A stretch of 64,000 bases of DNA, taken from contig NZ_JAFEUU010000016.1 of the NCBI RefSeq assembly GCF_017355885.1, positions 1-64,000 on the forward strand, given 5' to 3'. Positions 3,571 to 43,431 of this stretch are shown piece by piece. Below the pieces are notes generated by a model. That model was not told the origin of the DNA and ran no database searches. It saw nothing but the letters and a program-made list of their open reading frames with translations. How positions within the stretch are numbered: the first letter of the stretch is position 1; each line of letters begins with the position of its first letter. The stretch is from Sabulicella rubraurantiaca (GTDB taxonomy: Bacteria > Pseudomonadota > Alphaproteobacteria > Acetobacterales > Acetobacteraceae). Made by a program: the position numbers and the translations under genes.

Positions 3571-5129
3571 TCCGCCGCCTCGCAGCCCTTGCGCTGCTTC
3601 TCGCCGTTGCCCTGCCCGCCTCGGCCCAGACCGTGCGCTGGGGCAATAATGGCGAGGTCTCGACCATGGACCCGCACGGGGCCTTCAGCACGGCCAATGC
3701 GGCGCTGCTGGGCAACATCTATGAGGGGCTGGTCCGCCACGACCGCGAGCTGCGCTTCGAGCCCGCCCTGGCCACGGGGTGGGAGGTGCTGGCCCCCGAC
3801 CACTGGCGCTTCACCATCCGCCAAGGCGTGCGCTTTCACGATGGCTCGCCGCTGACGCCCGCGGATGTCGTGGCCTCGCTGCGCCGGGCCTCGCTGCCCA
3901 ACTCGCCCTATGCCTCCGTCACCCACATGATCCAGTCAGTGGAGCAGAGCGGCGACTGGACGGTGGATATCTGCCTGCGCGGCCCCTACCCGGTGCTGAT
4001 CAACGACCTGGCCGGCATCTCCATCCTCTCCGAGGCGTGGATGCAGCGGCACGACGCGCTACAGCCGGCCGATCCCGCCCGCGGGCGCACCGCCTACACG
4101 AGCATGAACACGAACGGCACCGGCCCCTACCGGCTGGTCTCGCGCGAGCCCGACGCGCAGACCGTGCTGGAACGCTTCGACGGCTGGTGGGACCGCTCGC
4201 CCGTGCCGGTGCAGCGCGTGGTCTTCACCCCCGTGGCCAATGATGCGACGCGGGTGGCGGGGCTTCTGGGCGGGCAGCTGGACGTCATCACCCCCACGCC
4301 GCTCCAGGATCTCGACCGGCTGCGCGCCGCGAACGGGCTGCGCGTGGTGGAGGCCCAGGACCTGCGCGTGATGTTCCTGGTGTTCAACGTGGCCGCGGAC
4401 CACCCGGTGGAAGGCCAGCCGCGCAACCCTCTCGCCGATGCGCGCGTGCGCCAAGCCCTCAGCATGGGCGTGGATGTTGGCGCGGTGACGCAAAGCGTCA
4501 TGCGCGGCCTGACGCAACCCATCCACACGCTAATCGCGCCCGAGATCGGCGGCTACGACGCCGCGCTGGCCACGCCGCGCGTGGCGCACGACACGGCCGC
4601 GGCGCGCCGCCTCCTGGCCGAGGCCGGCTATCCGGAGGGCTTTGGCATCGGCTTCGACTGCCCGAATGACCGCTTCGTGAATGGCGAGCGTGTGTGCCGC
4701 GCCATCGCCTCCATGTGGGCGCGGATCGGCGTGCGGGCGAATTTGAACGTGATGCGCTACCCGCCCTACATGGCGCGGTTCCTGAACCACCAGAGCGACA
4801 TCTTCCTGCTGGGCTGGGCCAATACGCCGCAGCTGGACGGGTTCTCCCTGCTCAACAACGTGCTCCATACCAAGAACCAGCGCAGCGGCAGCTGGAATGC
4901 GGGCCGCGTCAGCGACCCCGCCTTCGACGCGATCGTGGCGCGCGCGGCGGTGGAGATGGACCCGGCCCGGCGCACCGCCCTGATGACCGAGGCCTTCACG
5001 ATGGAGCGGCGCGCCTTCTGGACGCTGCCGCTCTATCGCGAGCCGATGGTGGTGGCGATGCGCCGGCCGCTGGACATGCCGGCCTCGGCCGACGGGCGGA
5101 TGCGCTTCTGGATGGCGCGGCTCGACTGA
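3567..5129 (+). CDS. ABC transporter substrate-binding protein, family 5 (peptide/nickel type)
   Basis: A 520-residue periplasmic receptor with a clear Sec signal peptide (MIRRLAALALLLAVALPASA, cleavage near residue 20). The SBP_bac_5 fold follows, including TMDPHGAFST near the N-terminus, HDGSPLTPADVVASLRRA in the middle and DRFVNGERVCRAIASMWARI in lobe II. Such receptors deliver peptides, glutathione or similar amides to Dpp/Opp-type ABC importers. No permease or ATPase gene is next to it, so it must borrow membrane parts encoded elsewhere or be an orphan. Its ATGA overlap with the M81 peptidase gene suggests joint expression. Confidence 0.93.
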   Translation: MIRRLAALALLLAVALPASAQTVRWGNNGEVSTMDPHGAFSTANAALLGNIYEGLVRHDRELRFEPALATGWEVLAPDHWRFTIRQGVRFHDGSPLTPADVVASLRRASLPNSPYASVTHMIQSVEQSGDWTVDICLRGPYPVLINDLAGISILSEAWMQRHDALQPADPARGRTAYTSMNTNGTGPYRLVSREPDAQTVLERFDGWWDRSPVPVQRVVFTPVANDATRVAGLLGGQLDVITPTPLQDLDRLRAANGLRVVEAQDLRVMFLVFNVAADHPVEGQPRNPLADARVRQALSMGVDVGAVTQSVMRGLTQPIHTLIAPEIGGYDAALATPRVAHDTAAARRLLAEAGYPEGFGIGFDCPNDRFVNGERVCRAIASMWARIGVRANLNVMRYPPYMARFLNHQSDIFLLGWANTPQLDGFSLLNNVLHTKNQRSGSWNAGRVSDPAFDAIVARAAVEMDPARRTALMTEAFTMERRAFWTLPLYREPMVVAMRRPLDMPASADGRMRFWMARLD

Positions 5130-8890: not shown

Positions 8891-10060
8891 TTACCGCTTC
8901 CCCAGCCGGTATCCCGCAAGGCCCAGCAGCAGCGACGCCGCCAGGGCCAGGAACCCGGCGGGGTAGCCCGAGGCGCCGACCGCCCATCCCATCACCGCCG
9001 GCAGCGCGGCCGACCCCAGCACCTGGGCAAGGTTCACCGTGGTCACGCCACGCCCCACCAGATGCTCCGGGAACAGCATCCGGCCCTGCGTGACCAGCAG
9101 GATGGAATAGGCCGACCCGGCGCAGACGAGGCAGAGCAGCGGCACCGCCACGGGCAGGGCGGGCCCCGCCGCCAGGGCCAGCAGCGCCAAGATGACCGTG
9201 CCGCACATCAGCGCCACCGTCCGGTCCCGCCCCAGGCGCCGCTCCAGCGGCGGCACCAGGAGCTGGCCGAGCGGCACGCAGATCCCCATGGCCAGCAGCA
9301 CCGTCCCGCGCGCGGCCGGCGTCAGCCCATGCACGTCATGGAGGAAGGGCCCCGCCCAGAGGGCGAGCAGCGTCGCCATGGCGGCATAGGCAAAGGTGTG
9401 CAGCGACAGGATGCGCAGCAGGCCTGGCGTGCGCCACACGGAGAACTGCCCGGCGAGGATCTCGCCCAGCGTTTCCCGTCGGATGACGCGCGGCGGCGCG
9501 TCTGGCGGGTCATCCGCCGCCAGCCACCACCAGGCGAGGCCCAGCAGCGCCGTCACCCCCGCCGAAAGGAGAAAGGCGCCGCGCCACCCCGTCAGCCCGG
9601 CCAGCACGGCAAGCGGCGCCCCCGCGGCGAGGATCCCCGCCTGGCTCCAGGCGAAGGTCGTGCTGATGGCGCGGGTCAGGGCGGTGCCCCGATGCCAGCG
9701 CCCGGACAGCACCACCGCCGCCATGAAGGACGCCGCGCAGCCCAGCCCCAGAAGGAAGCGCGCGACGATGAACTCCGTCCCCGTCCGCGCCACGGATTGC
9801 CACGCCGCGCCCAGCACCGCCAGCGCGGTCAGCAGGAGGACGAGGCGCTTCGGCCCGATGCGGTCCAGCGCCACGCCAACAGGAATCTGCGCCGCCAGCA
9901 ACGCGCCGAAGAAGGCGGAATTGGCCGCGCCCAAGGCGCCCGGCCCCATGTCGAGATCCGCGGCAAGCTCCGGCGCGATCACCCCCACCGCCGCGCGATG
10001 GAAGTTCGAGATTCCGGTCATCCCGACCAGGGCGATGATCAGCCTCGACCCGGGTGTCAT
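8891..10060 (-). CDS. MFS transporter
   Basis: A 389-residue major facilitator with about twelve hydrophobic helices. It opens with MTPGSRLIIALVGMTGISNF. The loop 2-3 segment is IPVGVALDRIGPKRL, the usual GxLaDrxGrkr-like motif. No substrate can be named; the layout is close to the CynX/NimT or sugar-phosphate antiporter branches of MFS. The ATG at 10060 overlaps the stop of the upstream ArsR-type regulator as ATGA, so the regulator probably controls this exporter or importer. A longer open frame to 10426 is a shadow of the regulator gene. Confidence 0.9.
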   Translation of the reverse strand: MTPGSRLIIALVGMTGISNFHRAAVGVIAPELAADLDMGPGALGAANSAFFGALLAAQIPVGVALDRIGPKRLVLLLTALAVLGAAWQSVARTGTEFIVARFLLGLGCAASFMAAVVLSGRWHRGTALTRAISTTFAWSQAGILAAGAPLAVLAGLTGWRGAFLLSAGVTALLGLAWWWLAADDPPDAPPRVIRRETLGEILAGQFSVWRTPGLLRILSLHTFAYAAMATLLALWAGPFLHDVHGLTPAARGTVLLAMGICVPLGQLLVPPLERRLGRDRTVALMCGTVILALLALAAGPALPVAVPLLCLVCAGSAYSILLVTQGRMLFPEHLVGRGVTTVNLAQVLGSAALPAVMGWAVGASGYPAGFLALAASLLLGLAGYRLGKR

Positions 10061-10743
10061 GCGGCGAGGCCGAACTCCGCCTCCAGCGCGCGCAGCCCCT
10101 CGGGCGTGGGATGTAGGCGGCGGCGACGCAGCGTGTCGGTCGCCGCCGGCTCGATGCGCACCAGCCACTTCCGGCGCAGCAGCAGCGTCGCCAATTCGCG
10201 CCCCAGCCCACCCGCAAGGTGGGGCCGGCGCTCCGACCAGTCCATGCAGTCGCAGGCGAAGCGCGGAGCGCGGCGCGCCGCAGCGAGGTCCACGTCCAGG
10301 GCCACCAGCCGCGCCTCGCCACGCGGCGTGACGACCCAGCCGCCGCCCTCCGGTTCCAGCCAGCCCTGGCCGGTCAGGCGTTCGTGCAGCCCGACGCCGA
10401 TGCGCCCGGCGACGTGATGCCAGCACAAACGTCCGCGCCGCAGCGCTTCGTCATGCGGCCAGGGGCGGCGCGCCGGGCGCGCCGCGAGGCCGAGCAGCGT
10501 CTCGATCGCCTGCGCCACCTCCTCGCCGCCCAGGCGGAACCAGCGGTGGCGGCCCTGGGCATGCACGGCCACCAACCCGCCCTCGGCCAGCGCCTTGAGC
10601 TGCGCCGAGGCGGCAGGCGCGCCGATCCCGGCGATGCGCGCCAGCTCGCCCGCCGTCAGCGCCTCGCCGGGCAAAAGGGCCTGCAGCATGGCGGCACGGG
10701 AGGGATCGCCGATCAGGGCGGCGGTGGCGGCGAGGCTGGTCAT
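10057..10743 (-). CDS. ArsR-type winged-helix transcriptional regulator
   Basis: A 228-residue regulator. Its N-terminal winged helix reads AALIGDPSRAAMLQALLPGE, then ELARIAGIGAPAASAQLKAL as the recognition region and a wing ending in GRHRWFRLGG. The C-terminal half (about residues 110-228) is longer than in classical ArsR metal sensors and contains a second basic segment. No CxC metal site is visible in the usual position, so a metal ligand is not supported. It is coupled by ATGA overlap to the MFS gene. A perfect 8-bp inverted repeat lies 32 nt upstream and could be its operator. Confidence 0.88.
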   Translation of the reverse strand: MTSLAATAALIGDPSRAAMLQALLPGEALTAGELARIAGIGAPAASAQLKALAEGGLVAVHAQGRHRWFRLGGEEVAQAIETLLGLAARPARRPWPHDEALRRGRLCWHHVAGRIGVGLHERLTGQGWLEPEGGGWVVTPRGEARLVALDVDLAAARRAPRFACDCMDWSERRPHLAGGLGRELATLLLRRKWLVRIEPAATDTLRRRRLHPTPEGLRALEAEFGLAA

Positions 10744-38318: not shown

Positions 38319-39179
38319 TCAGGGCGGGAGCTGACCGGACCCGGCGGGCTCATCCACGGTCCCGACAAGTTCCGCATAGGCATGCCACGTCGCATGGCCG
38401 ATCACGGGCACGACCAGCATCAGCCCGAACAGCCCCGCGCCGATCCCGATCAGTGTCAGGATCGCGATGACGAAAGCCCACAGCGCCATGGTGAGCGGGT
38501 TGGTGAGGCAGGCGCGCAGGCTCGTCATCGCGGCGGTCATCGCATCCACCTGCCGATCCACCAGCATCGGCAGGCTGACGGCGCTGAGCGCGAAGACGAG
38601 GGCAGAGAGCACGGCGCCCACCCCGAAGGAGGTGATGACGAAGCTGTAATCCGCCAGGGCCGTGGCGAGGAAGGTGTCGATCGGCGGCAGGTCGAGGCCG
38701 AAGAACAGGAACCAGATCATCGTCGCCACGCGCATCCAGCCATAGAAGAACAGCATGAGCAGCGCGCTCATCAGGCCGATGCCCCAGCGATTGCGGGAGA
38801 AGCCGGCGAAGAGCGCCCCACCGCCCGGCGCCTTGCTCCGCATCTGGCGCCGGCTGGCCTCGTAGAGGGGCACGGCCAGGATCGGCGCCGCCAGCATGAA
38901 GCCGGTGATGAGCGGCAGGATCAGCACCGCGCTCTGAGCATTCCACATCGCCGCGACGATGGCCCAGCCGACCAGCGCGCAGAACAGGCCCACGCCGAGC
39001 CCGGTTGCGGGTTTCCGCTGAAAGTCGCGCCACCCCGCGCCCATCCATCGCGCCACCGCTTCGGGCGGAGCGCGCCGCACTGGGATGCCGGCCGCCACCA
39101 GCTCGCCACTGGCGCTGACGGGATCGACCGCCGCGCCGACGGGCGGGTCCTCGAAACGGCCGGGAACCGGGGCGTTCAT
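38319..39179 (-). CDS. DUF2189 integral membrane protein
   Basis: A 286-residue protein with six hydrophobic helices. The DUF2189 opening is WMGAGWRDFQRKPATGLGVG. Paired helices follow, such as LILPLITGFMLAAPILAVPL, and the end is LVVPVIGHATWHAYAELVG. The function is unknown. It overlaps the next upstream small membrane gene as ATGA and is divergent from ccoN. Confidence 0.88.
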   Translation of the reverse strand: MNAPVPGRFEDPPVGAAVDPVSASGELVAAGIPVRRAPPEAVARWMGAGWRDFQRKPATGLGVGLFCALVGWAIVAAMWNAQSAVLILPLITGFMLAAPILAVPLYEASRRQMRSKAPGGGALFAGFSRNRWGIGLMSALLMLFFYGWMRVATMIWFLFFGLDLPPIDTFLATALADYSFVITSFGVGAVLSALVFALSAVSLPMLVDRQVDAMTAAMTSLRACLTNPLTMALWAFVIAILTLIGIGAGLFGLMLVVPVIGHATWHAYAELVGTVDEPAGSGQLPP

Positions 39180-39388
39180 GGCAGCGACCGATGCAGCAGC
39201 CGATAGCCAAGGAACACCCCGAACCCCGCGAAGAGCATGCCACTCGCCGCCATGTAGTCATCCCCCGCGCGGGCCGACAGCAAGAGCCCGCCGATCACCA
39301 GCAGGGCGACGAGAAGCGCCCAGCCGCCGGTGGCCAGCCCGTAGCCATCGGTGCCCGATGAACCGCGCTGCTCGGAATTCTCTTCCAT
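39176..39388 (-). CDS. Small membrane protein next to the cbb3 locus
   Basis: A 70-residue protein starting [15 protein letters not shown], with two transmembrane helices (about 19-36 and 45-62) in [20 protein letters not shown] and [18 protein letters not shown]. Its stop overlaps the DUF2189 start as ATGA, so the two are coupled. I do not recognise a named family. Its divergent start lies 127 nt from ccoN, suggesting a shared control region and perhaps an accessory role. Confidence 0.65.
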
Positions 39389-39515
39389 CGGGAAATCCTT
39401 CCACATCAAGCGCGCGGTTGGAAAGCGTAAAACTTGCGGTTGCATGCGAACGCGGGTTGCACGGCGCGGCCACCATGCTGTTTCATCATATGCCTGTTCT
39501 GCGGAGGAACCGCGA

Positions 39516-40976
39516 ATGAGCGAGGCTATGACGGGCGTAGCCGGGCGCGCAGCGGTGGATGAGGTTCCCGACTACGACGATCACGTCGTCCGCCTCTTCA
39601 TCGTCGCCTCCGTCTTCTGGGCCCTCGTCGGCATGGGGATGGGCGTGCTCATCGCCGCGCAAATGGTTTGGCCGCAGCTGAACGTCGAACCCTGGTTCAC
39701 CTTCGGCCGACTGCGCCCCGTTCACACGAGTGGCGTGGTCTTTGCCTTCGGCGGCAACGCCGTGATCGGCACCAGCCTCTACTGCGTCCAGCGGACCTGC
39801 CGGGCCCGGCTCCCCGGCCGCTTCGCGGCGGAGTTCGTTTTCTGGGGCTATCAGCTCTTCATCGTGCTCGCCGCGCTCGGCTACGTCATGGGCGTGACGC
39901 AAAGCCGCGAATATGCGGAGCCGGAATGGCTCACTGACCTCTGGCTCGCGATCGTCTGGCTGACCTATCTCGGCCTGTTCGTCGGGACGCTGCTGAAGCG
40001 GCGCGAGGCCCATATCTACGTGGCGAACTGGTACTACCTCGCCTTCATCGTCGCGGTGACCGTGCTCCACGTGGTCAACAACCTTGCCGTGCCCGTGGCA
40101 TGGAACGAGTCGGACAGCGTCTCCCTGTTCAGCGGCGTGCAGGATGCAATGACGCAGTGGTGGTACGGCCACAACGCGGTGGGCTTCTTCCTGACCGCAG
40201 GCTTCCTCGGCGTCATGTACTACTACCTGCCCAAGCAGGCCGATGCGCCGATCTGGTCCTACCGGCTCTCCATCATCTCCTTCTGGTCGCTGGTCTTCAT
40301 GTACATGTGGGCCGGCCCGCACCACCTGCATTACACCAGCCTGCCCGACTGGGTTCAGACGCTGGGCATGACCTTCACGATCATGCTCTGGATGCCCTCC
40401 TGGGCATCGGCGCTGAACGGCTTCATGACCGCCTCCGGCCGCTGGGACAGGCTGCGCACCGATCCGGTGCTGCGCTTCATGATCGTGGCGGTGGTGTTCT
40501 ACGCGGTGGCCACCTTCGAAGGTCCCTTCATGGGCGTGCGCACGGTGAACGGCCTGTCGCACTACACCGAATGGACCATCAGCCACGTCCACTCCGGCGC
40601 CCTCGGCTGGAACGGCTTCATCGTCTTCGGCGCCATCTACTACCTCGTCCCGCGCATCTGGGGCCGCGAGGGCATGCACTCCCGCGCCGCCCTGGAATGG
40701 CATTTCTGGCTCGGGCTGACCGGCATCATGCTCTACGTCACCGCCATGTGGGGCGCGGGCGTCATGCAGGGGCTAATGTGGCGCGCCTACACTTCGCTCG
40801 GCTTCCTCCAATACTCCTTCCTCGACACGGTCATCGCCGCGAAGCCCTACTACGCCATGCGCCTGATGGGGGGCGTGCTCTACCTCTCGGGCGCGGGCGT
40901 CATGGCGTGGAACGTGTGGCACACCATTCAGGAGCCGCGCCCGGTGCAGGCGCCAGCCCCGGTGCCAGCGGAGTAG
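39516..40976 (+). CDS. ccoN: cbb3-type cytochrome c oxidase subunit I (CcoN)
   Basis: A 486-residue catalytic subunit with twelve helices. Haem and copper ligands are seen in [35 protein letters not shown], the HHLHYTS segment and [16 protein letters not shown]. It reduces O2 at high affinity in the inner membrane. The ATG at 39516 is preceded by GGAGGA 9 nt upstream. The ccoO start lies 7 nt after its stop. No FNR/Anr box (TTGAT-N4-ATCAA) is visible in the 127 nt upstream. Confidence 0.97.
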
Positions 40977-40983
40977 CGCGGCC

Positions 40984-41736
40984 ATGGCAACCGACGAGAA
41001 ATCCCCCCGCTTCGCCCGGCTGCACGGCCGCTTCGAACGCCGCGCGGTGCGCTTCGCCCTCGCCATCCTGGTCGTGCTCTCGGTGGGCGGTATTGTCGAG
41101 GTGGCGCCCCTCTTCGCCCTCGAGAACACGGTGGAGAAGGTGGAGGGGATGCGGCCCTACACGCCGCTCGAACTCGCCGGCCGCGCCGTCTACATCCGCG
41201 AGGGCTGCTATGTCTACCACAGCCAGCAGATCCGCCCCTTCCGCGACGAGGTGGAGCGCTATGGCCCCTACTCCCTCGCCGCCGAGAGCATGTATGACCA
41301 CCCCTTCCAATGGGGCTCGAAGCGCACGGGACCGGACCTCGCCCGGGTCGGGAACAAGTACTCCGATGACTGGCACGTGCGGCACCTGCTCAACCCGCGC
41401 GATGTCGTGCCCGCTTCCATCATGCCCTCCTATGCCTTCCTCGCGACGACGCCGCTGCGGGTGGAGCGCATCGACCGCCTGATGCGCACGCACCAGCGCG
41501 TCGGCGTCCCCTACACCGAGGAGCAGCTTGCGAATGCGCGTGCCGATCTGGTCGCCCAGGCCGGCTCTGCCGACGACGCGACCGAGATGCTCGGGCGCTA
41601 CCCCAAGGCACAGGCGCGCAACTTCGATGGGCAGCCCGGCCTGACGGAGATGGACGCGCTGGTCGCCTATCTGCAGATGCTTGGCACGCTGGTGGAGTTC
41701 GACTGGCGCAGGCCGCGCCCGGACATGGTCCGTTGA
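40984..41736 (+). CDS. ccoO: cbb3-type cytochrome c oxidase subunit II (CcoO) with altered haem c motif
   Basis: A 250-residue membrane-anchored cytochrome c subunit: one N-terminal helix (about 22-46), then the haem domain. The expected CxxCH motif reads CYVYH (residues 75-79): C75 and H79 are present but the second cysteine is tyrosine (codon TAC, 41215-41217; one base from TGC). The next residues are HSQQIRPFRDE where most homologues have HSQMIRP. The distal methionine region SIMPSYAFL and YDHPFQWGSKRTGPDLARVG are intact, so the protein otherwise looks functional. Haem would have at most one thioether bond. A sequencing error must be excluded. Confidence 0.95.
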   Translation: MATDEKSPRFARLHGRFERRAVRFALAILVVLSVGGIVEVAPLFALENTVEKVEGMRPYTPLELAGRAVYIREGCYVYHSQQIRPFRDEVERYGPYSLAAESMYDHPFQWGSKRTGPDLARVGNKYSDDWHVRHLLNPRDVVPASIMPSYAFLATTPLRVERIDRLMRTHQRVGVPYTEEQLANARADLVAQAGSADDATEMLGRYPKAQARNFDGQPGLTEMDALVAYLQMLGTLVEFDWRRPRPDMVR

Positions 41737-41785
41737 TGGCGCTGGCCATGCCCGGCCCCGTCCGGTCCGGCCTGGAGGTCCGCGC

Positions 41786-42721
41786 ATGAACACGCCCCCG
41801 GACCGCGAGGAACGCATCGGCGACTGGGTGCCGCCCAGGCCGCAAGTGGCGCCCGGAGCGCCGGATCCGGAGCGGGATCCGAACTCCCCTTTGCGCCACA
41901 CCCTGCCAACCTTCGATGGCATCCGCGAGCTGGACAGCAGCCCGCCCAAGGTCTGGACCTACATCTATCTCCTCACCTTCTTCGCCTCGATTTGGATCTG
42001 GGTCGCCTATCCGGCCTGGCCGTGGTTCGGCGGCGCCACGCCGGGAATCCTGGGCTGGAACTCGCGCGGCGACTTGCCGCGCGCCGCCGAGATCGCCGAG
42101 GCCAATGCGCCCAGCGTCGCCCGCCGCTTCGCCGCAGCAAGATGGGAGGAGATCGAGGCAAGCCCCGAGCTCCGCGCCTATGGCGCCGCAGCGGGGCGCG
42201 GTCTGTTCGGCGAGAATTGCGCGCCGTGCCACGGCAAGGACGGGCGCGGCACCCGTGGCTTCCCCAACCTCGCCGATGGCGACTGGCTGTGGGGCGGCGA
42301 GGTGGATGCCATCGAGCAGACGCTGCGCGTCGGCATACGCTGGCATGGCTCCGACGAAACCCGCACCAGCCAGATGCCGGGCTTCGGCGCGCAGGGCATG
42401 ATGGACCGTCGGCAGGTGCTCGACATGGTCGAGTGGCTGCGTGGCTCCGGCGGGCTCGAGCACGATGCGGCGGCCGCGCAGCGCTCCGGCCCCGTCTTCG
42501 CGGAGAACTGCGCCTCCTGCCACGGCGAGGATGGAAAGGGGAACCAGGAACTAGGCGCGCCGAACCTGACCGATCAGGTTTGGCTTTACGGCAGCGACCG
42601 GAACTCCCTGTTCCAGACGCTCTGGAGCGGGCGCAATGGCGTCATGCCGGCCTTCGGTGGCCGGCTTTCGGACGACATGATCCGCAAGCTGGTCCTGCAC
42701 GTCCGGGGCCTCGGTGAATAG
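41786..42721 (+). CDS. ccoP: cbb3-type cytochrome c oxidase subunit III (CcoP)
   Basis: A 311-residue dihaem cytochrome. It has an N-terminal FDGIRELDSSPPKVWTYIYL segment and one membrane helix (about 57-77). CAPCH (145-149) and CASCH (242-246) are the two haem sites, each followed by a methionine-containing loop. It receives electrons from soluble cytochrome c. The ATG at 41786 has GGAGG 7 nt upstream. The 49 nt before it hold no ccoQ. Confidence 0.96.
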   Translation: MNTPPDREERIGDWVPPRPQVAPGAPDPERDPNSPLRHTLPTFDGIRELDSSPPKVWTYIYLLTFFASIWIWVAYPAWPWFGGATPGILGWNSRGDLPRAAEIAEANAPSVARRFAAARWEEIEASPELRAYGAAAGRGLFGENCAPCHGKDGRGTRGFPNLADGDWLWGGEVDAIEQTLRVGIRWHGSDETRTSQMPGFGAQGMMDRRQVLDMVEWLRGSGGLEHDAAAAQRSGPVFAENCASCHGEDGKGNQELGAPNLTDQVWLYGSDRNSLFQTLWSGRNGVMPAFGGRLSDDMIRKLVLHVRGLGE

Positions 42722-43169
42722 GCGTGCCGCCCCGCGCTGGATCCCGCTGCTGGCGCTGCTGCCGCTGCTGGCCCTGATGGCGGCCGATGCGGTCATGGCG
42801 GTGCTGGCCGCCCGCACCGACCCCGGGATGGTGGCCGATGCGCCCCGGCGCGTGGGCATGGCACGACTCAGCCCCACGGCGGAACTCCGGCTGGATGCGT
42901 CCGTGTCGCAGGCGGGCCGGGATGGCTACGACCTGGTCCTGCGGCTGCGGGATGCGGCGGGCGCCCAGGTGCCCGCTTCCCTTGCCGAGGCTCGGCTCGA
43001 GCGCACGACTCACGCCGCCTCCGATAGCTCCATCCAGGCCATCCCGCGCGCCGATGGAAGCTGGTCGGCCCGGGTCACGCTGCCGGATGCCGGCAACTGG
43101 CAGGTGACGGCGGTGGCGCGGGACGAGGAAGGGCGCTCAGCCCTCGTGGTGGTCCGGCTCGCGCCGTGA
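42714..43169 (+). CDS. ccoH: FixH/CcoH family protein
   Basis: A 151-residue protein with one N-terminal membrane helix (about 10-33) and a periplasmic Ig-like domain ending DGSWSARVTLPDAGNWQVTA. FixH/CcoH assists cbb3 assembly and stability. The GTG start at 42714 lies inside the ccoP end (8-nt overlap). Its last 33 nt overlap the convergent ccoS gene. Confidence 0.88.
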   Translation: MNRRAAPRWIPLLALLPLLALMAADAVMAVLAARTDPGMVADAPRRVGMARLSPTAELRLDASVSQAGRDGYDLVLRLRDAAGAQVPASLAEARLERTTHAASDSSIQAIPRADGSWSARVTLPDAGNWQVTAVARDEEGRSALVVVRLAP

Positions 43170-43319
43170 GGGGCGATGCGGCTTGTCATCCTGCAGGATG
43201 CGCCACGCGGCTCCCTCAAGGTCCTCGAACTGGCCTGAGCGCGTGCACCACAGGAAAAGCGCCAGCCCGCCTCCGGCCATTGCGAGCGTGATCGGCAGAA
43301 GCCACATCAGAGCGTACAT
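43137..43319 (-). CDS. ccoS: cbb3-type oxidase assembly protein CcoS
   Basis: A 60-residue protein. One membrane helix (about 3-24) is followed by the family motif LWCTRSGQFEDLEGAAWRIL and a short basic tail. CcoS is needed for cofactor insertion into cbb3 oxidase. Unusually it is convergent to ccoNOPH and overlaps the end of ccoH by 33 nt. The copper ATPase ccoI, which usually precedes it, is not present. Confidence 0.88.
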   Translation of the reverse strand: MYALMWLLPITLAMAGGGLALFLWCTRSGQFEDLEGAAWRILQDDKPHRPSRREPDHHEG

Positions 43320-43431
43320 CGCAGGTTCCAACCGCCCTTCGTCGCGGCAGGATTGTGCGCCTTCCCAGCGCGCGGGCCAAGAAATGAAGGCGGCCTGCAA
43401 GGCGGCATCCCGGAGGCACCGGGATGGACCC

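Follow-up and report, generated by a model that had tools for sequence, protein, structure and literature searches.

The window analysed here, a stretch of 64,000 nucleotides from the genome of Sabulicella rubraurantiaca, carries a cassette for a cbb3-type oxidase in which ccoN, ccoO and ccoP follow one another, the first encoding a COX1-type CcoN and the last a di-haem CcoP, and in which ccoH and a small ccoS-like gene adjoin on one side, and two genes read away from ccoN on the other (Table 1). The product of ccoO matches over its full length the curated models of the CcoO/FixO family, with scores well above the respective cut-offs (343.6 bits vs. 200.65 for TIGR00781 and 304.6 bits vs. 29.6 for PF02433).

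Table 1. Genes of the cbb3 cassette and its immediate neighbours (positions in the window).
Feature	Position	Strand	Family matches	Remarks
DUF2189 membrane protein	38319..39179	-		divergent from ccoN
small protein	39176..39394	-		no Pfam match; accompanies the cassette in three other genomes
ccoN	39516..40976	+	TIGR00780, PF00115	catalytic subunit
ccoO	40984..41736	+	TIGR00781, PF02433	250 aa; one of two in the genome
ccoP	41786..42721	+	TIGR00782, FixP_N	intact haem motifs CAPCH and CASCH
ccoH/fixH	42714..43169	+	PF05751	
ccoS/fixS-like small protein	43137..43319	-	PF03597	opposite strand

At the place where CcoO has its single CxxCH haem c motif, positions 41206-41220 of the forward strand read TGC TAT GTC TAC CAC, i.e., CYVYH, the surrounding protein sequence being YIREGCYVYHSQQIRPFRDEVERYG, with C75, Y78 and H79. 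The A at 41216 makes the codon of residue 78 a TAC, which puts a tyrosine in the place of the second haem-attaching cysteine. A pattern combining the CcoO context with a second-cysteine codon lacking the middle G finds this site and no other in the window, and finds nothing in 100 shuffles. His79 and Met147, the latter of which we take to be the second axial ligand, are invariant across five aligned CcoO sequences. The preliminary description of this DNA had reported a CYVYH in place of CxxCH, a tyrosine codon one base away from TGC and an otherwise intact CcoO, and on all three points it agrees with what is found, the change being a G-to-A difference from the TGC of the three nearest orthologues.

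The 5-kb block comprising the DUF2189 gene, the small protein, ccoN-O-P-H and ccoS (window 38342-43381) recurs with 90% DNA identity in a sister species (G002, locus L055), where the flanks, within 13 kb of that genome, have no match to the window on either side. The block is found with nearly the same ends in two genomes from other genera of the family (G327 and G184), close orthologues of its ccoO occur in 2 of the 21 genomes of the genus, and it may move as a unit. Adjoining the cassette on its left side in G002 (L055, about 4038-4200), a translated frame contains GDSYDNVLAECINGINK, a stretch that in our view resembles the end of an IS3-type transposase. Comparison with plasmid DNA gave matches to 353 of 72,556 records, all at 60–80% identity and without a single place that covered 80% of the query. 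DUF2189 genes stand divergent from ccoN at both cbb3 loci of the genome, the second one at positions 9289-10089 of locus L056, and their presence beside ccoN at both loci hints at a role linked to the cbb3 oxidase.

The alignment with close relatives for which the preliminary description had called shows that the orthologue of the sister species, 95% identical, has CYVCH with the codon TGC, as have the next nearest among the matches listed, those of G327 and G184, both 83% identical. CcoO is present in 19 of the 21 genomes of the genus, that of the window included, the remaining matches being 59–62% identical. When the motif was read at every one of the 21 matches from the genus search and in the best 30 loci (28 of them new) of a further search that matched 173 of 397 genomes, 48 of 49 CcoO loci, those of the window's own genome included, had CxxCH, the window copy being the sole exception. 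A search of the wider phylum (288 of 388 genomes matched at E up to 0.001 and 263 over the curated cut-off) added its best 30 loci and brought the count to 78/78, the 48 included. Because each search contributed its best matches, these samples lean towards typical sequences. The canonical motif in the closest orthologues and in the other relatives indicates that no CcoO lineage keeps the CYVYH state; a variant motif of lineage-wide extent can thus be dismissed and, as far as the sequences compared can tell, the substitution of Cys78 by Tyr is private to this genome and is not shared by its closest relatives.

To gauge how rare such a loss is, 84,980 species genomes (genome_contigs) were scanned with a pattern in which the first cysteine was kept and the codon at the second position lacked the middle G. 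The context used, [DE]GC...H[ST]Q.[IVM]R....E, is present in 78/78 canonical CcoO loci; the scan sees only replacements whose codon lacks that G, and it may have skipped the window's own genome. Five matches were obtained, two of which are CcoO; the other three (L050, L051 and L052) contain stop codons, have no CcoO context and were rejected as chance matches. The two genuine cases come from MAGs: L053, of the Nitrosomonadaceae, has CYNYH at a site some 8 kb inside its contig, with the remainder of the gene upstream, and L054, of the Flavobacteriales, has CNNFH. Each of them is the only CcoO found by family search in its 2.9-Mb assembly (L095 and L096), which indicates that a change of this kind does not always strike a spare copy. 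The residue replacing cysteine is aromatic in all three cases (Tyr, Tyr and Phe). Among their relatives (11 loci read for each case, from one search with 24 of 31 genomes matched, whose 11 loci were new, and another with 17 of 29 matched) all 22 loci have CxxCH, so that, of the 102 CcoO loci other than the window copy whose motif was read, 100 are canonical and the remaining two are the MAG loci themselves. As all the relatives' loci read CxxCH, loss of the second cysteine in CcoO looks sporadic and not like the trait of a lineage, and the finding of the loss type searched for in the CcoO of 2 of 84,980 species genomes, a denominator that counts genomes and not CcoO genes, suggests how strictly CxxCH is kept.

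The state of the rest of the cassette bears on the age of the change. Pairwise dN/dS with respect to the sister species is 0.053 for ccoN, 0.064 for ccoO, 0.120 for ccoP and 0.204 for ccoH; none of the four alignments is truncated, and a gapless DNA match of 5,040 bases covers the cassette. Polarised by the outgroups G327 and G184, the lineage-specific amino acid changes in the four genes number 15 on the branch of the window's genome, C78Y included, and 15 on that of G002, the synonymous ones being 51 and 54, respectively. A rough Poisson model applied to these counts makes it unlikely that more than ~8% of the time on the branch was free of constraint (P = 0.024 at 8% and 0.117 at 5%). Decay into a pseudogene was rejected, there being no stop, no frameshift and no asymmetry in the lineage-specific changes. 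As no decay is seen in ccoNOPH after the divergence from the sister species, C78Y should be recent, tolerated or an error; judged from these comparisons, if it disables the enzyme, it is recent.

An error of base-calling or assembly, with a G at 41216 in the actual genome and a normal CYVCH in the protein, is the main rival of a recent mutation and fits almost as well; we regard it as a serious possibility that falls clearly short of an even chance. Such an error would account for one G-to-A change, relative to the three nearest orthologues, in a cassette in which relaxed selection is not seen, the two other cases of the scan are singletons from MAGs among uniformly canonical relatives, and the assembly (5.02 Mb) is a draft in 64 contigs. 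On the other hand, completeness is 99.16% and contamination 0.27%, no direct sign of error is apparent, and the gapless match and the full-length alignment of the four genes also count against an error.

The genome has a second cbb3 locus, on contig C24, whose ccoO (G000:C24:312921-313607) has a canonical CYACH. A second ccoP is present as well, and the COX1-family genes number seven, both ccoN included. Further frames, read by eye, follow ccoNOP on C24 and presumably represent ccoG, ccoH, ccoI and ccoS. An FNR/FixK-type palindrome, TTGATCCTGATCAA, starts 38 bases before the listed start of the ccoN ORF on C24, and the pattern TTGAYNNNNRTCAA has no match within the window; the comparison of the two cassettes is consistent with a difference in oxygen control, of which it is not proof. 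The second locus with its canonical CcoO, together with the seven COX1-family genes, makes the window copy a spare one, and on the evidence of gene content the ccoNOPH of the window is a redundant, accessory copy. The preliminary description had held that a second normal ccoO elsewhere, with the window copy silent, would speak against an unusual haem site; the former element, the second gene, is what is found. Its suggestion of an unusual haem site finds no backing in a motif that occurs in one genome only, is absent from G002, G327 and G184, and belongs to a spare copy in a genome that also has a canonical CcoO; its alternative, a sequencing error, is the rival weighed above.

The reading that fits these data best, and which the preliminary description did not contain, is that a point mutation, recent, private and probably disabling, has turned Cys78 into Tyr in a ccoNOPH cassette that is redundant and accessory, and we give it a probability of about 0.6. 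Against a disabling mutation counts the fact that, residue 78 apart, the gene bears no mark of death, having neither stop nor frameshift and a low dN/dS; the same data also agree with a miscalled base or with a change that is tolerated.

Whether CYVYH could carry haem depends on the attachment machinery. A match to TIGR00353 (616.6 bits vs. a cut-off of 569.05, printed as nrfE) is present in the genome, in a family that we assume to hold CcmF, the System I synthase. The E. coli Ccm system (System I) is reported by Allen et al. 2002, a study cited in PMC4158909, not to attach haem to single-cysteine apocytochromes, so that the earlier statement that Ccm normally needs both cysteines holds up. 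As for the other systems, haem attachment to CXXAH by HCCS, the mitochondrial synthase, is very slight or nil (PMC4158909), and purified CcsBA, the bacterial System II, accepted a single one of the cysteine variants tested, namely homocysteine at the first position (PMC8112865). Purified eukaryotic HCCS, on the other hand, made one thioether bond when either cysteine of the peptide had been altered, and at least one with every cysteine analogue tested (PMC8112865), which speaks against a general ban on single-thioether attachment.

That the window CcoO works, its haem being held by one thioether (Cys75) together with His79 and the methionine in an unusual haem c site, seems to us decidedly improbable. 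The rest of CcoO is indeed intact and the cassette undecayed, an aromatic residue recurs in all three cases, two of which involve the sole CcoO detected in the respective assembly, and the HCCS products show that the chemistry exists. Yet the variant is common neither to the sister species nor to any relative read and has no support from conservation, the behaviour of Ccm, of HCCS on CXXAH and of CcsBA all weighs against it, and the aromatic residues are what a change in the middle base of TGY yields (TAY and TTY, whereas TCY would give Ser). Even less probable is the fuller proposition that CcoO works through haem on its first cysteine with Tyr at the second, that System I has a CxxYH substrate and that the CYNYH and CNNFH singletons are further, independent examples. 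Among the titles and abstract openings listed by searches of an open literature library for the haem motifs of cbb3 and CcoO and for cytochromes with one cysteine or one thioether, none reports a natural bacterial CcoO lacking the second cysteine.

A normal protein could also result if TadA-type A-to-I editing of the mRNA recoded UAC to a cysteine codon (UIC being read as UGC), a possibility to which we attach the least credit of all. Tyr-to-Cys recoding at UAC is the commonest bacterial A-to-I recoding (255 of 381 mRNA events), and when TadA was overproduced in A. baylyi 29.3% of the edited sites were, like that of the window, one base off TACG (PMC12255301); the A in question is also unpaired in the predicted hairpin loop of all three stretches folded. 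The site itself, however, is CUACCAC, in which C stands where UACG has its G and which departs at two positions from YUACGAA, a motif in which single changes left little or no editing in two transcripts (PMC12255301). The His codon that follows the cysteine cannot supply that G, and TAC occurs at this place in no relative read except the L053 singleton; recoding of the mRNA was judged unlikely on the mismatch of the motif. The best TadA-like match of the genome (G000:C61:200832-201272; L091) is below the family cut-off and has one TAG inside the matched stretch, which may reflect a match running past the end of the gene.

If, as the recent-mutation reading would have it, Cys78-to-Tyr is disabling, its consequences can be sketched from the HCCS, CcsBA and Ccm reports and from the electron path of cbb3 oxidases, which leads from the haems of CcoP through haem c of CcoO to haem b of CcoN and to the active site (PMC7876108). 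We infer from them that the window CcoO would receive little or no covalent haem: System I would attach none or very little of it to CYVYH, CcoO would remain without haem c, the path from CcoP through CcoO to the haem b of CcoN would be cut, and the cbb3 isoform of the window would fail to assemble or be inactive. Respiration would be carried by the cbb3 oxidase of C24 and by the remaining haem-copper oxidases, which would mask the loss. As it stands, the change matters little: it is private, it affects one of the two ccoO genes, and an annotator might misread it as a novel haem chemistry. Were haem in fact attached at the site, the two-cysteine requirement reported for System I would be contradicted.

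Comparison with known systems places the case accordingly. The single-thioether cytochromes c and c1 of Euglenozoa (AAQCH and FAPCH) likewise miss one attaching cysteine, but there it is the first that is replaced and the second that is kept (xxxCH), as the preliminary description had correctly stated and as also counts against a single-thioether site in the window; moreover, their motif is conserved in the lineage and in kinetoplastids a dedicated synthase, KCCS, serves it (PMC8262978). The window CcoO is the opposite, lacking the second cysteine, in one genome only, with CYVCH in G002, G327 and G184 and with a System I gene present. In Neisseria meningitidis, too, cbb3 oxidase has lost a haem c domain through the change of one base, but there a stop codon removes the extra, third haem of CcoP and is described as species-associated (PMC2924362), whereas the change in the window is a missense at the sole haem c of CcoO in one genome. 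The protein is also close to canonical CcoO/FixO: the nearest solved chain, 6xkw_o, named cbb3 subunit II, resembles the window protein with an E-value of 1.6e-98 and is nearly identical to it around the motif, reading CYVCHSQ where the window has CYVYHSQ, so that the difference is Tyr78 in place of the second haem-attaching cysteine, and the protein looks like a regular CcoO whose gene, a spare copy, has recently acquired a substitution of its own, or whose sequence contains a base-call error, and not like a new kind of haem site.
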